Positions 4,541-14,167 of a stretch of DNA of 64,000 nucleotides are shown piece by piece. A program made the position numbers and the translations under genes. Each line of letters opens with the position of its first letter. Within the stretch, counting starts at the first letter, position 1. Source of the stretch: Clostridiaceae bacterium JG1575. GTDB lineage: Bacteria; Bacillota; Clostridia; Clostridiales; Clostridiaceae. The stretch spans positions 248,001-312,000 of the forward strand of contig LQGW01000052.1 in assembly GCA_002838815.1 (NCBI GenBank). Reading direction: 5' to 3'. The notes beneath the pieces were generated by a model. The model saw only the letters and a program-made list of their open reading frames with translations. It was not told the DNA's origin and ran no database searches.

Positions 4541-5572
4541 TTATTCCGCCCCCGCTTCCCCTTCTTTGACTCCGTCTAAGAGAGGCAGTCCATGCTTTTC
4601 CCGGATCTTATTTTCGATCAAAAGCGCCAGATCCTTGTTCTCTGCCAGATACTTCTTGGCGTTTTCTCGGCCCTGGCCCAGGCGGGTTTCCTCATAGTTG
4701 AACCAAGCGCCGGATTTTCCAACGATGCTCTCCTTCACCCCCACATCGAGAATGTTTCCTTCTCGGGAGATGCCGCCGTTATACATAATATCGAATTCCG
4801 CGGTCCGAAACGGCGGAGCGACTTTGTTTTTCGTGACCTTAATGCGAGTGCGGTTTCCTTGGAATTCATCGCCGGATTTGATGGAATCCGTGCGGCGCAC
4901 ATCCAGGCGCACAGAGGAGTAAAACTTTAAGGCGCGACCTCCAGGCGTAGTTTCGGGGTTTCCGAACATTACGCCGACTTTTTCACGCAACTGGTTGATG
5001 AAGACCACACAGCAGTGACTTTTGCTGATGGAGGCGGTGAGCTTGCGAAGCGCCTGGGACATCAAGCGAGCTTGAAGGCCAACATGGGTATCGCCCATCT
5101 CCCCTTCGATTTCAGCGCGGGGCACCAAAGCAGCTACGGAGTCCACCACCACGATGTCCACGGCATTAGAGCGCACCAAGGCTTCGGTGATCTCCAAGGC
5201 CTGTTCACCGGTATCGGGTTGAGAGACGATGAGGTTGTCGATGTCCACGCCGATGACTTTAGCGTATTGGGGATCTAGGGCATGCTCTGCGTCAATGAAT
5301 GCCGCGATGCCGCCGAGCTTTTGCGCCTCGGCAATCATGTGCAAGGTGACGGTGGTTTTTCCGGAGGATTCCGGTCCGTAGACCTCAATAATCCGGCCGC
5401 GGGGGACGCCGCCGATGCCTAGGGCGATGTCCAAATCCAAGCAGCCCGTGGGAATGGATTCCACATTCAGCTTGGCATCATCCCCGAGTTTCATGATGGC
5501 GCCTTTGCCGAACTGTTTTTCGATCTGGTTCATCGCCGCTTCAATGGCTTTTAGTTTATCTGTATTTGGCAT
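4541..5572 (-). CDS. recA: Recombinase RecA
   Basis: A 343-residue RecA of normal length. It forms ATP-dependent filaments on single-stranded DNA, catalyses strand exchange and stimulates LexA self-cleavage. Visible features are the N-terminal helix ending GKGAIMKLG, Walker [10 protein letters not shown], the DNA-binding loop region around [13 protein letters not shown], and [14 protein letters not shown]. The start ATG at 5572 follows GAGAGGAG. Its promoter carries a perfect LexA box (see 5591-5637), so it is SOS-regulated as in other Bacillota. A hairpin terminator follows. The acidic C-terminal tail (KEGEAGAE) is short but normal. Confidence 0.99.
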
Positions 5573-10480: not shown

Positions 10481-10610
10481 GATTTTGATCCGACGAAACG
10501 TCCCTTTTGGAAATGGGGACTTCTGCTATTGGATTAAGAAGACTTCAAAGGATCCAAAGAATGGATCCTCGAAAAAAAAGGAAGATCCTCCCATGCGAGG
10601 GACCGTATGC

Positions 10611-10635
10611 TATAATATGTATAGAACATACGTTC
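10611..10635 (+). promoter_or_regulatory. Promoter with LexA (SOS) operator before the radical SAM gene
   Basis: An extended -10, TGCTATAAT (TATAAT at 10611-10616), is followed eight bases later by GAACATACGTTC (10624-10635), a perfect GAAC-N4-GTTC LexA box. Arrangement and distance match the recA promoter of this window, where the box also follows the -10. No good -35 is seen. The start codon of the radical SAM gene lies 42 bases downstream. Confidence 0.88.
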
Positions 10636-10676
10636 TTAGTCAAAGGGACCCTACCCCCGCATCGGAGGAATCGACC

Positions 10677-12053
10677 ATGAACTTTACCGACAAAGTCACC
10701 ATCTTAGCGGAATCCGCCAAATACGACGCCTCCTGCTCCTCTTCCGGATCGATGCGAAAAAAAGGCGGTCCGGGGCTTGGTAGCGCGGCGCCTGCAGGGA
10801 TCTGTCATACCTTTTCCTCGGACGGACGCTGCATATCCCTTTTAAAAATCCTACTCACCAACGCTTGTCGCTACGATTGTCACTACTGCGTCAACCGATG
10901 CAGCAACGACATCCCGCGGGCTCGCCTAACGCCGCAAGAGGTAGCGGATCTCACCATGGCCTTTTACCGGAGAAATTACATTGAAGGGCTGTTTTTAAGC
11001 TCCGGCATTCCCGTCTCCCCCGATCAAACCATGATGGACCTCATCCAATGCGCAAAGCTTTTGCGCACCGTGCATCACTTTCAAGGGTACATTCATTTAA
11101 AGGCCATTCCCGGGGCCGATCCTCTCTTGATCCAGGAAGCCGGCATGTACTGCGACCGCCTAAGCGTCAACATCGAACTGCCCTCTGAGGAGAGCTTCCC
11201 GATCCTCACCCCACAAAAACGCATGGCCGATGTGACGGGCCCCATGGGCACCATCGCCTCGGCCATCCGGCACCAGACCAAGGGACCCTTAGCCCTCAAA
11301 GGGGCTTCCTTCGCGCCAGCAGGTCAAAGCACGCAGCTGATCGTGGGGGCTACGGCTGATTCCGATCACCGGATTCTGCTTTTAGCGCAGTCCCTCTACA
11401 GCCGCTACCAGCTCAAACGGGTGTATTATTCAGCGTACATGCCCGTCAACCAAGGGCCAACCCTTCCAGAGCTCATTGCCCCACCCCTTTTACGGGAGCA
11501 TCGGATCTATCAAGCCGACTGGCTGTTGCGCTTTTACGGGTTTTCCGCTCAAGAACTGTTGAACGAGGGAGAGAACTTTGAAGAGGAATGGGATCCGAAA
11601 ACCACCTGGGCCCTGCGCCATCCAGAATTTTTCCCTGTGGAAATCCAGCGAGCCCCCAAGCGCGACCTTTTAAGAGTTCCAGGCATCGGCGTCCAGTCCG
11701 CCCTACGCATCATCAAAGCTCGCGCCCACGGGTCCCTAGAGGCCGCCTGCCTCAAAAAAATGGGCATTGTGATGAAGCGCGCGTGCCATTTCATCACCTG
11801 CGGTGGAAAGGCGCTAGCCCCCACCGGCTTTGACCCATTGCGCATCCGAAGCGCTCTCTCCCCCGGGCCCAAAATTCAGCAGCTGAGTTTTTTCGACGAT
11901 GAACTCAAAGCCCTCGCCGAAGAAACCTTTTTAAAGCAGCCCGACGCCCTTTGGGGCTGGCGAGAAGAAGATGTCTGTCGGGCCCTACAACAAAACGCAG
12001 CACAGCAGGCCCTTTTACAGGAAGAGCGCACTCGGCCCTTGGGAGGTTTTTAG
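10677..12053 (+). CDS. Putative DNA modification/repair radical SAM protein (TIGR03916-like)
   Basis: A 458-residue radical SAM protein. The cluster-binding motif is CRYDCHYC, with Cys64, Cys68 and Cys71; a further Cys lies at 75. The region around GRCISLLKILLTNAC matches the family annotated as putative DNA modification/repair radical SAM proteins. A helix-hairpin-helix (LLRVPGIGVQSALRI) in the C-terminal third suggests DNA binding. ATG 10677 follows CGGAGGAA. The DUF4130 gene starts two bases after its stop, so the two form an operon, and these families are known to occur together. The LexA box upstream points to DNA-damage induction. The chemistry has not, to my knowledge, been settled; repair by radical chemistry is inference. 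Confidence 0.92.
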   Translation: MNFTDKVTILAESAKYDASCSSSGSMRKKGGPGLGSAAPAGICHTFSSDGRCISLLKILLTNACRYDCHYCVNRCSNDIPRARLTPQEVADLTMAFYRRNYIEGLFLSSGIPVSPDQTMMDLIQCAKLLRTVHHFQGYIHLKAIPGADPLLIQEAGMYCDRLSVNIELPSEESFPILTPQKRMADVTGPMGTIASAIRHQTKGPLALKGASFAPAGQSTQLIVGATADSDHRILLLAQSLYSRYQLKRVYYSAYMPVNQGPTLPELIAPPLLREHRIYQADWLLRFYGFSAQELLNEGENFEEEWDPKTTWALRHPEFFPVEIQRAPKRDLLRVPGIGVQSALRIIKARAHGSLEAACLKKMGIVMKRACHFITCGGKALAPTGFDPLRIRSALSPGPKIQQLSFFDDELKALAEETFLKQPDALWGWREEDVCRALQQNAAQQALLQEERTRPLGGF

Positions 12054-12055
12054 CC

Positions 12056-12778
12056 ATGATCTATGTCGTTGAAAACTCCATGGAAGGCTTTTTCACAGCC
12101 CTATATCATCACTTGAAAATCGAGCCCTGCGAAGGGATCCTTCGGGAACAAGACGCGAGGGCCTCTCTTTTGGAGGCGCCCAAAGCCCTCCCTAGCGATA
12201 ATGCCCTCGCCCGCCGCGTCAGAGAAGGGCTTCGGGAAAAGCTCGGAAGCAAAGAACGATCCTTGATGAACTATCTTTTGCTTTATAACGATTCGCAAAG
12301 CTTCACCTGGGCCTTGCAGGTGACACTTTTTGCCCTCTCCTACGGCCCTGGGGCCGCGGATGTGTTGCAGCACCCCGCAGTTCTTCGGGCCACAAAATGC
12401 CAACAAGCCGTGCGCAAGGAAGCCCACCGTATGAAGGGATTTTTACGCTTTCAATGTGTGGAGCAGGTGATGATTGCCGTCATGGAGCCCGACCACGACA
12501 TCTTGGAGCTCTTAGCGCCCCATTTTCGTCAACGCATGGACCATCACCCCTATCTGATTGTGGACGCCAAACGTCAAAAGGCACTTCTGATCCAAGATCA
12601 GAAGTGCCTGGTGCAAAAAAACGTGCGTCTGCCCGATGGCTTGCAACAAGAAGATCCCTATGAAGCCCTGTGGCGCTCTTATGTGGATCATTTGGCCATC
12701 GTCTCTCGACGGAACCCCAAAGCACAGGACCGCCTGGTTCCTCGAAGGTATCGGGGGCACATGACGGAGTTTCAATAG
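12056..12778 (+). CDS. DUF4130 / TIGR03915-family putative DNA repair protein
   Basis: A 240-residue protein recognised by its N-terminal YVVENSMEGFFTALY, the central HRMKGFLRFQ and HHPYLIVD, and the C-terminal RRNPKAQDRLVPRRY. This family (DUF4130) is regularly found next to the radical SAM protein encoded just upstream and is annotated as a putative DNA repair partner. Start ATG 12056 lies two bases after the upstream stop, with GGGAGG 8-13 bases before it inside that gene. There is no membrane segment or signal. The operon ends here; the next gene is convergent with only three bases between. Co-regulation by LexA with its partner is expected. Enzymatic activity is unknown. Confidence 0.9.
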   Translation: MIYVVENSMEGFFTALYHHLKIEPCEGILREQDARASLLEAPKALPSDNALARRVREGLREKLGSKERSLMNYLLLYNDSQSFTWALQVTLFALSYGPGAADVLQHPAVLRATKCQQAVRKEAHRMKGFLRFQCVEQVMIAVMEPDHDILELLAPHFRQRMDHHPYLIVDAKRQKALLIQDQKCLVQKNVRLPDGLQQEDPYEALWRSYVDHLAIVSRRNPKAQDRLVPRRYRGHMTEFQ

Positions 12779-12781
12779 GCG

Positions 12782-14167
12782 TTAGGCTTTTTTGCGGCTG
12801 ACCAAGGCGCCCAATAAAATGGAGTAAAGCTTCGCCTCTGCCGTATCCGCCCGAGAAACCAAAAGAATGGGCACGCGAGCCCCCATGATGATGCCGGCGT
12901 TGACGGCTCCGGCAAAATAGCTAAGGGATTTGCCGAGCATGTTGCCCGCCTCAATGCTCGGCACGAGAAGCACGTCCGCATCCCCGACCACTTCGCCGGT
13001 GAGGCCCTTATGCTTTGCCGCTTCCTTGGAAATGGCGTTGTCCAGGGCAAGGGGGCCTTGCAGGATGCAGCCGGACAATTCGCCGCTTTGCTGCGCCAAA
13101 ACAAGATCCCGCGCGTCGAGGGTGCAGGGCATTTTCTCATTGACCTTTTCCACGGCGCAAAGCGCTGCGACCTTGGGTCGTTCAATACCCAGACAATGCC
13201 CCACGGCCACGGCGTTCTTCACGAGTTCCTTTTTCTGCTCCAGGGTGGGATAGGCGACCATGCCGCCATCCGTGGTCAAAAGAAGCTTATGGTAGGTGGG
13301 CACATCGTAGATCATGACGTGGGAGAGTACCGGGGACTGACGCAGGGTGAATTCCTTATTGAGGACCTGCTTTAATAAGGTTTTGGTTTCCAAGAGCCCT
13401 TTAAGGATCATGTCCGCCCGTCCTTCCGATGCCGCGCGGCACGCTTCGTGGGCGGCCATTTCCGCACTCTCGCAGCCAACAACCTCCACCCCCTCTTCAT
13501 CGCCCAAAAGGGCGCGGATCTTCTCGGCCTCGCCAAAAAGAAGGGGTTGGACTAAGCCTAGTTTTTTGGCGCGCAGCACCGCTTCAATGACGGCCTCGTC
13601 CTCTGCAGCGGCCACCGCAAGGACGGCCGGCTGCGCCAAAGACACCTCTTTCAACTGTTCCAATCGTGTAATCATCTCATTCTCCTTTTCCGCATGATGG
13701 GATGCTCGGGCAGCGTCTTGGACAGAAAGTTCTCGAAAGAATTCAGGCAATTCTTCCTCTGAATACACTTTGATTCCTTCGGCCCGAAGAAGCTCGGTGA
13801 AAACCCCTGCCCCGGGGATCCGTTGCCCACAAAATCGTCCGTCGTATCGTTCATGGACGCCACAGGACGGGCTGCGCTCCTTCAAAAGAACGGTGGTGAC
13901 GCCCTGCGCCTGGCAAAGGTGCAGGGCTTTTTGAGCCCCTTCCTTGAAGGCTGCTGTGACGTCTTGGCCCTCCTTGGTTTTGACGCAACCGCTGCAGGTT
14001 CGTTCCGCAGGCGCTCGAGGAATGGGTAAGCCGCCCAAGACCTCAGGGCAAAGTGGCAAGACCTCTTCTGCGGCCAACCCCTCCATAAGCTGGGGAATGC
14101 CCTTTTCTTGACCATCATAACGCACTTTGTGCCCCAAAAGACAGGCCGAAACGGCAATTTTTTTCAT
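12782..14167 (-). CDS. DUF523 protein fused to phosphate butyryltransferase-like domain
   Basis: One 461-residue frame covers two normally separate proteins. Residues 1 to about 150 are DUF523 (KIAVSACLLGHKVRYDG at the start, CSGC, SPSCG). Residues 165-461 are a full-length phosphate acyltransferase of the Ptb type, starting MITRLEQL and including GLVQPLLFGE, ILKGLLETKTLL and SIEAGNMLGKSL. Ptb exchanges the CoA of butyryl-CoA for phosphate. The linker of about 15 residues is polar. The first start, ATG 14167, has GGGAG upstream. An internal ATG (13675) has a perfect ribosome site, so Ptb may also be made separately. No butyrate kinase gene is adjacent. DUF523 function is unknown. Confidence 0.88.
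   Translation of the reverse strand: MKKIAVSACLLGHKVRYDGQEKGIPQLMEGLAAEEVLPLCPEVLGGLPIPRAPAERTCSGCVKTKEGQDVTAAFKEGAQKALHLCQAQGVTTVLLKERSPSCGVHERYDGRFCGQRIPGAGVFTELLRAEGIKVYSEEELPEFFRELSVQDAARASHHAEKENEMITRLEQLKEVSLAQPAVLAVAAAEDEAVIEAVLRAKKLGLVQPLLFGEAEKIRALLGDEEGVEVVGCESAEMAAHEACRAASEGRADMILKGLLETKTLLKQVLNKEFTLRQSPVLSHVMIYDVPTYHKLLLTTDGGMVAYPTLEQKKELVKNAVAVGHCLGIERPKVAALCAVEKVNEKMPCTLDARDLVLAQQSGELSGCILQGPLALDNAISKEAAKHKGLTGEVVGDADVLLVPSIEAGNMLGKSLSYFAGAVNAGIIMGARVPILLVSRADTAEAKLYSILLGALVSRKKA
13675..13687 (-). promoter_or_regulatory. Internal ribosome binding site and start for the Ptb domain
   Basis: On the minus strand AAGGAG (13687-13682) lies six bases before an in-frame ATG (13675-13673) that begins MITRLEQL, exactly where free-standing Ptb proteins begin. 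It suggests independent initiation of a 297-residue Ptb inside the fused frame. Confidence 0.65.

Follow-up and report, generated by a model that had tools for sequence, protein, structure and literature searches.

The locus analyzed here raises the question of whether two adjacent genes, encoding a radical SAM protein and a DUF4130 protein, are switched on by DNA damage and, if so, what the pair would do to DNA. Within the window, that is, the whole 64,000-nucleotide stretch that was analyzed, the genes are preceded on the plus strand by an extended -10 element, TGCTATAAT, at positions 10608-10616, which has no good -35 partner and was missed by a simple promoter scan that demands one. Seven nucleotides after TATAAT, the LexA operator GAACATACGTTC, a perfect palindrome, is located at 10624-10635 (plus strand) within the 14-mer AGAACATACGTTCT, followed by a ribosome-binding site, GGAGG, at 10664-10668 (plus strand) and by the ATG of the first gene at 10677. 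The recA gene of the same window (4541-5572, minus strand) served as an internal positive control: TATAAT at 5614-5609 is followed by the operator GAACGAATGTTC at 5602-5591 on the minus strand, the order of the two elements being identical and the gap 6 nt for recA against 7 nt for the operon. The original prediction had placed a perfect LexA box just past the -10 element of a two-gene operon and had likened the layout to that of recA, and both points were borne out. Upstream, a gene for an Orn/Lys/Arg decarboxylase ends before a terminator-like hairpin and the downstream neighbour is convergent, so that the pair forms its own transcription unit. In most relatives of the family the box lies between a TTTACA-like -35 element and the -10 element, whereas here it follows the -10 element; RNA polymerase would be blocked in either arrangement. 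On the minus strand at 12782-14167, a single ORF carries a 2-thiouracil desulfurase (DUF523) domain and then a phosphate acetyl/butyryltransferase domain, which is either an unusual fusion protein or the result of two genes running together in one frame.

The pattern GAACN4GTTC is in itself weak evidence, since it occurs twice in the 64-kb window against an expectation of 1.2. In the whole 2.38 Mb genome there are 24 such sites, approximately one per 99 kb (52 for the reversed pattern), and a site within 66 nt before a given gene is thus an event of about 1 in 1,500. Other genomic sites precede a Y-family polymerase gene and a Clp ATPase gene, and the genome contains a lexA gene whose own promoter has a box with one mismatch, GAACAGGTGTTT; the SOS regulon of the host was judged from whole-genome pattern matches only. 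The site of the Clp-family ATPase gene, a perfect AGAACGCATGTTCT at G000:C1:35549-35560, lies 89 nt before the gene and suggests that it, too, may be under SOS control. The same 14-mer as at the operon is also found at G000:C7:10124-10135, 40 nt before an 86-aa ORF without a Pfam match.

A clearer picture is provided by relatives of the operon. At the curated cut-off, TIGR03916, the family of the radical SAM protein, was detected in 67 of the 117 sampled genomes that belong to the window's family and in 65 of the 299 from its phylum. The scan for GAAC-N4-GTTC upstream of these homologues, which the original prediction had proposed as a check, was run on 131 loci over 200 nt, with start codons set by rule rather than by annotation, and 128 loci were usable. 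Allowing one mismatch at most, a LexA box was present in 104 of the 128 Bacillota loci and a perfect one in 39, counts which overstate the number of events because the loci share ancestry and are not independent; dinucleotide shuffles of the same regions gave 5.4 and 0.1, respectively. The box-bearing loci comprised 59 of 65 from the window's own family and 45 of 63 from other families. When all 256 palindromes of this design (four bases, a gap of four) were compared, GAAC came first on both counts. The original prediction passed the test that it had set for itself, under which a lack of box enrichment ahead of homologous pairs would have counted against it. Most of the boxes are found 20-80 nt ahead of the start, usually in the spacer from TTTACA to TATAAT. 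In an additional set of 80 named loci, a box of this kind preceded 22 of 214 neighbouring genes that had an upstream gap of at least 80 nt, versus 35 of 62 radical SAM genes, and the two perfect control sites were those of genes divergent from the radical SAM gene.

Regarding the loci that lack a box, at E 0.001 LexA was without a match in two of the genomes tested (G290 and G166) and matched only weakly in one more, while in three boxless genomes recA had no promoter-placed box either; the missing box thus sometimes goes with a missing regulator. In four genomes of one genus (L130-L133), GAACN4GTTC is replaced by GAATATRTATTC, also read as GAATATATATTC, in the promoter spacer approximately 60-72 nt before the radical SAM start, and recA of these genomes keeps a GAAC box with one mismatch. 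A lower-scoring group of Bacillota TIGR03916 proteins (L138-L151, about 340-430 bits), in which the N-terminal cysteines are shifted, is possibly a second subfamily, and 12 of its 14 loci have a LexA box that deviates by no more than one mismatch. The two other sampled genomes of the window's genus (G011 and G052, one of them only 87% complete) had no TIGR03916 member, so that the distribution of the operon is uneven even between close relatives.

Beyond Bacillota, the operators differ with the lineage. All 9 alphaproteobacterial loci examined have GAAC-N7-GAAC no more than 40 nt from the start, and both betaproteobacterial loci have CTGT-N8-ACAG, these being the known LexA operators of the two groups. 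The loci of the Bacteroidota Pontibacter and Hymenobacter have CTAA-N5-TTAG, the LexA motif published for Bacteroidetes (PMC8565304). At the loci of Chlorobi, Geobacter, Parabacteroides and other non-Bacillota, none of the motifs tried was in promoter position, and the non-Bacillota loci as a whole were chosen from match lists, not at random. The lineage-specific operators in the alphaproteobacterial, betaproteobacterial and Bacteroidota loci imply that LexA control followed the gene through changes of operator, and such retention between phyla argues strongly for a genuine role in repair. The expectation that damage induction ties the pair to DNA repair was strongly supported in this way, by the conserved operators in Bacillota together with the different ones elsewhere. 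LexA control of the operon is, on this sequence evidence, a well-supported prediction.

The first gene (10677-12053, plus strand) encodes a 458-aa protein that scored 578.6 bits with TIGR03916 against a cut-off of 343.5 and was modelled by AlphaFold2 with a pLDDT of 86.8. Its CxxxCxxC motif (10866-10889, plus strand), formed by C64, C68 and C71, is that of the radical SAM enzymes and is invariant in 62 aligned sequences; C20, C43 and C52, located N-terminal to it, are also invariant in the aligned members. The model is a radical SAM barrel that matches lipoyl synthase, HydE and biotin synthase with Z scores of 16-18, VIA-align giving Z 17 for lipoyl synthase (residues about 3-285) and HydE (39-287). 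A helix-hairpin-helix (HhH) core, LLRVPGIGVQSALRIIKARA, at 11667-11726 (plus strand) is indicated by weak profile matches to ComEA/RuvA at residues about 320-360 and by helices in the model. Both the cysteine motif and the HhH domain had been predicted for this protein; the motif was confirmed, and the domain is supported by these weak matches. No spore photoproduct lyase (SPL) family or chain appeared among the Pfam/NCBIfam matches at E 0.001, in a model set without the SPL model sought, or among the PDB sequence matches. SPL was also not among the fold matches listed for the model, which does not count against it.

Past the folded part, residues 402-406 (11880-11894, plus strand) read QLSFF, a peptide predicted from its conservation to bind DnaN, the beta-clamp, and located in a region of low pLDDT (around 401-410) in the AlphaFold2 model. 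Of 164 complete relatives, 146 carry a pentapeptide of the form Q[LMI][STDNCAE][LFMI][FLW] within their C-terminal 75 residues, compared with a mean of 1.6 for shuffled tails and 0 for an internal window. In Proteobacteria, a clamp-type motif such as QLALF, QLSLF or QLSLI stands at the extreme C-terminus in 11 of 11 proteins. The QLSLF type is a known form of the sliding-clamp binding peptide; the variant in the window's protein is QLSFF, not QLSLF. Docking of the radical SAM protein on DnaN through QLSFF is therefore likely, as judged from the conservation of the peptide. A literature search returned no paper linking radical SAM enzymes of this kind with the sliding clamp, and binding to it is not known for any radical SAM enzyme.

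The partner gene (12056-12778, plus strand) starts 2 nt after the first and encodes a 240-aa protein without a UdgX/UDG fusion (model pLDDT 93.9). It was identified as DUF4130, as expected, with 183.8 bits for TIGR03915 against a cut-off of 112.25 and 140.2 bits for DUF4130. The co-occurrence of the two families, which had also been noted beforehand, was found again in all 30 of one set of loci and in about 77 of 80 of another, the DUF4130 gene being downstream of the TIGR03916 gene. The UDG-less partner is the rule among the 80 closest relatives, and TIGR03914, the UDG/UdgX form, had no match at E 0.001 in the window's own genome, which is 97% complete. The partner is annotated as a UdgX family member in Phaeobacter, Paracoccus, Caballeronia, Thioclava, Leisingera, Azospirillum and Ketogulonicigenium. 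The nearest folds to the DUF4130 model are nearly all DHH/DHHA1 proteins (RecJ, Cdc45, NrnA), with Z scores of only 8.2 for PAP phosphatase 8a8k and 7.4 for RecJ. Comparison by hhalign with the NrnA and RecJ sets gave E values of 0.9 and 0.6, without profile support; the DHH metal motif is absent from the invariant DUF4130 columns and the "DHH" string in the window's protein is not conserved. A relationship to DHH/DHHA1 is therefore not claimed, the fold list being suggestive and the profile comparison unsupportive.

Spread of the pair by phages was also considered and rejected: there were only two IMG/VR matches, and the ten "phage" records are mostly unannotated faecal contigs, one of them with bacterial genes. 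In the record named Acinetobacter phage MD-2021a (L237, CAKLQH020000003.1), glyS, glyQ and aidB lie beside the pair, and the record looks like a bacterial contig filed as phage.

Taken together, the findings are best explained if the radical SAM enzyme is induced by the SOS response, tethered to the clamp and directed at a DNA lesion, which it would process alongside its partner DUF4130; we assign this explanation a probability of roughly 0.6. The operon would be a LexA-repressed member of the SOS regulon, in which DNA damage leads to RecA-stimulated cleavage of LexA, freeing the promoter so that both proteins are made together. The TIGR03916 protein would bind SAM and a [4Fe-4S] cluster held by C64, C68 and C71, its C-terminal HhH domain would bind DNA, and QLSFF in the flexible tail would dock it on DnaN, placing its activity at stalled forks and repair tracts or behind them. 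At these sites, a 5'-deoxyadenosyl radical may reverse or convert a damaged base; it is from the family, the HhH domain and the context that we infer radical chemistry on DNA. The lesion is more likely to be of the pyrimidine type, because the proteobacterial enzyme is partnered by DUF4130 fused to a uracil-DNA-binding UdgX domain. DUF4130 would be an obligate partner that most likely recognizes the lesion or the product. Some considerations count against this explanation. The substrates of radical SAM enzymes include RNA, peptides and cofactors as well, and a gene of the SOS response need not act on DNA; moreover, the clamp motif is a short peptide proposed from conservation, of which the window has the variant QLSFF. 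A wider version of the proposal, that the clamp-tethered enzyme and its obligate DUF4130 partner form a widespread SOS pathway for a lesion outside the known excision, photolyase and SPL routes, and hence a new radical-based, fork-coupled repair, is offered tentatively.

Several other explanations were weighed. The simplest would make the box a palindrome that arose by chance and the operon an ordinary housekeeping pair, as would fit the near-chance frequency of the pattern in 64 kb; it was rejected on the basis of conservation across loci (104 of 128), the neighbouring-gene controls and the other operators in other phyla, and is scarcely credible. Another explanation agrees with the original prediction in assigning to the enzyme a chemistry like that of SPL, in which abstraction of an H atom would directly reverse a thymine photoproduct, without light and in cells other than spores. 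The absence of Spo0A from the window's genome is consistent with the "without sporulation" part of that prediction. The radical SAM motif and SOS control would suit such a reaction, SplB itself is SOS-regulated in several groups (PMC8565304), and DUF4130 has been grouped with SplB-like photolyases (PMC3765255). Nevertheless, SPL is missing from the family matches (subject to the model set described above) and from the PDB sequence matches, many hosts are gut or sediment anaerobes that receive little UV, and the HhH domain and clamp motif point to repair at forks and not to repair of the spore type, so that this reaction is considered unlikely.

The remaining alternatives retain DNA as the substrate and differ in what would be done to it. 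The enzyme may add or alter a base under stress, for example by sulfur or methyl transfer with an auxiliary cluster on C20, C43 and C52, the altered base being read or removed by DUF4130/UdgX. The three extra invariant cysteines, the nearest folds (lipoyl synthase, HydE and biotin synthase, with auxiliary clusters present in several of them) and the family name, "DNA modification/repair", all point in this direction, but damage control across phyla fits repair better and no modification-like neighbours were seen among the annotated loci; base modification is thus improbable, to much the same degree as SPL-like reversal. Alternatively, the targets may be replication-blocking crosslinks, interstrand or DNA-protein, in which the link would be cleaved by radical chemistry and the remnant handled by UdgX/DUF4130. 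Both the clamp motif and the SOS control point to a role at blocked forks, and UdgX is known to bind uracil-DNA covalently. The dominance of the UDG-less form among the closest relatives argues against this role, which we regard as quite unlikely. If lesion processing by a clamp-tethered enzyme is correct, many bacteria carry a damage-induced radical enzyme that is guided to DNA by the replication clamp and acts on a lesion unnamed so far; tests could start directly from the clamp peptide, the three additional cysteines or the optional fusion to UdgX.

It is necessary to separate what was known from what is new. For the comparison, COG4277 is presumed to be the same family as TIGR03916. Under the COG nomenclature, a COG1573-COG4277 (UDG-radical SAM) operon was described as SOS-regulated in Bacteroidetes in a 2021 LexA paper (PMC8565304), which also cites Verrucomicrobia and Caulobacter as having such an SOS-regulated operon. 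DUF4130 was predicted to be an enzyme with a role in mutagenesis and was connected with UDG and with radical SAM proteins of the SplB type (PMC3765255). In the text of a C. difficile LexA study no radical SAM gene is mentioned (PMC4234289), and the family is not among the COGs named in a study of the gut SOS meta-regulon (PMC3998124). The literature search returned no report on SOS control of the UDG-less Bacillota form, no experiment on any family member and no paper on TIGR03916. The term "undescribed" in the original prediction was consequently too strong, given that SOS control of the COG4277-UDG operon is published (PMC8565304), although it holds for the UDG-less Bacillota form as far as this search extends. 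The additions made here are the UDG-less Bacillota form with its operator of the B. subtilis type, the test of operators across phyla, and the clamp motif.

Compared with known systems, the pair corresponds most directly to TIGR03916 (rSAM_link_UDG) and TIGR03915 (SAM_7_link_chp)/DUF4130, since both of the window's proteins pass the cut-offs and the gene order is the same; the members of these families are uncharacterised. The SOS-regulated COG1573-COG4277 operon likewise places a radical SAM gene and a partner under a LexA-type repressor, but its partner includes a UDG domain, whereas here DUF4130 stands alone under a B. subtilis-type operator. SplB resembles the window's enzyme in being a radical SAM protein tied to DNA repair, with genes that are SOS-regulated in some bacteria. 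The window's enzyme differs from it in giving no sequence match in the searches described above, in having an HhH domain, a clamp-type tail and a DUF4130 partner, and in belonging to a genome without Spo0A. ImuB and DinB, clamp-dependent SOS proteins, are SOS-induced as the window's protein is predicted to be, and recruitment to DnaN through a QLxLF-type peptide would be a further shared feature; unlike them, the window's protein is not a polymerase.
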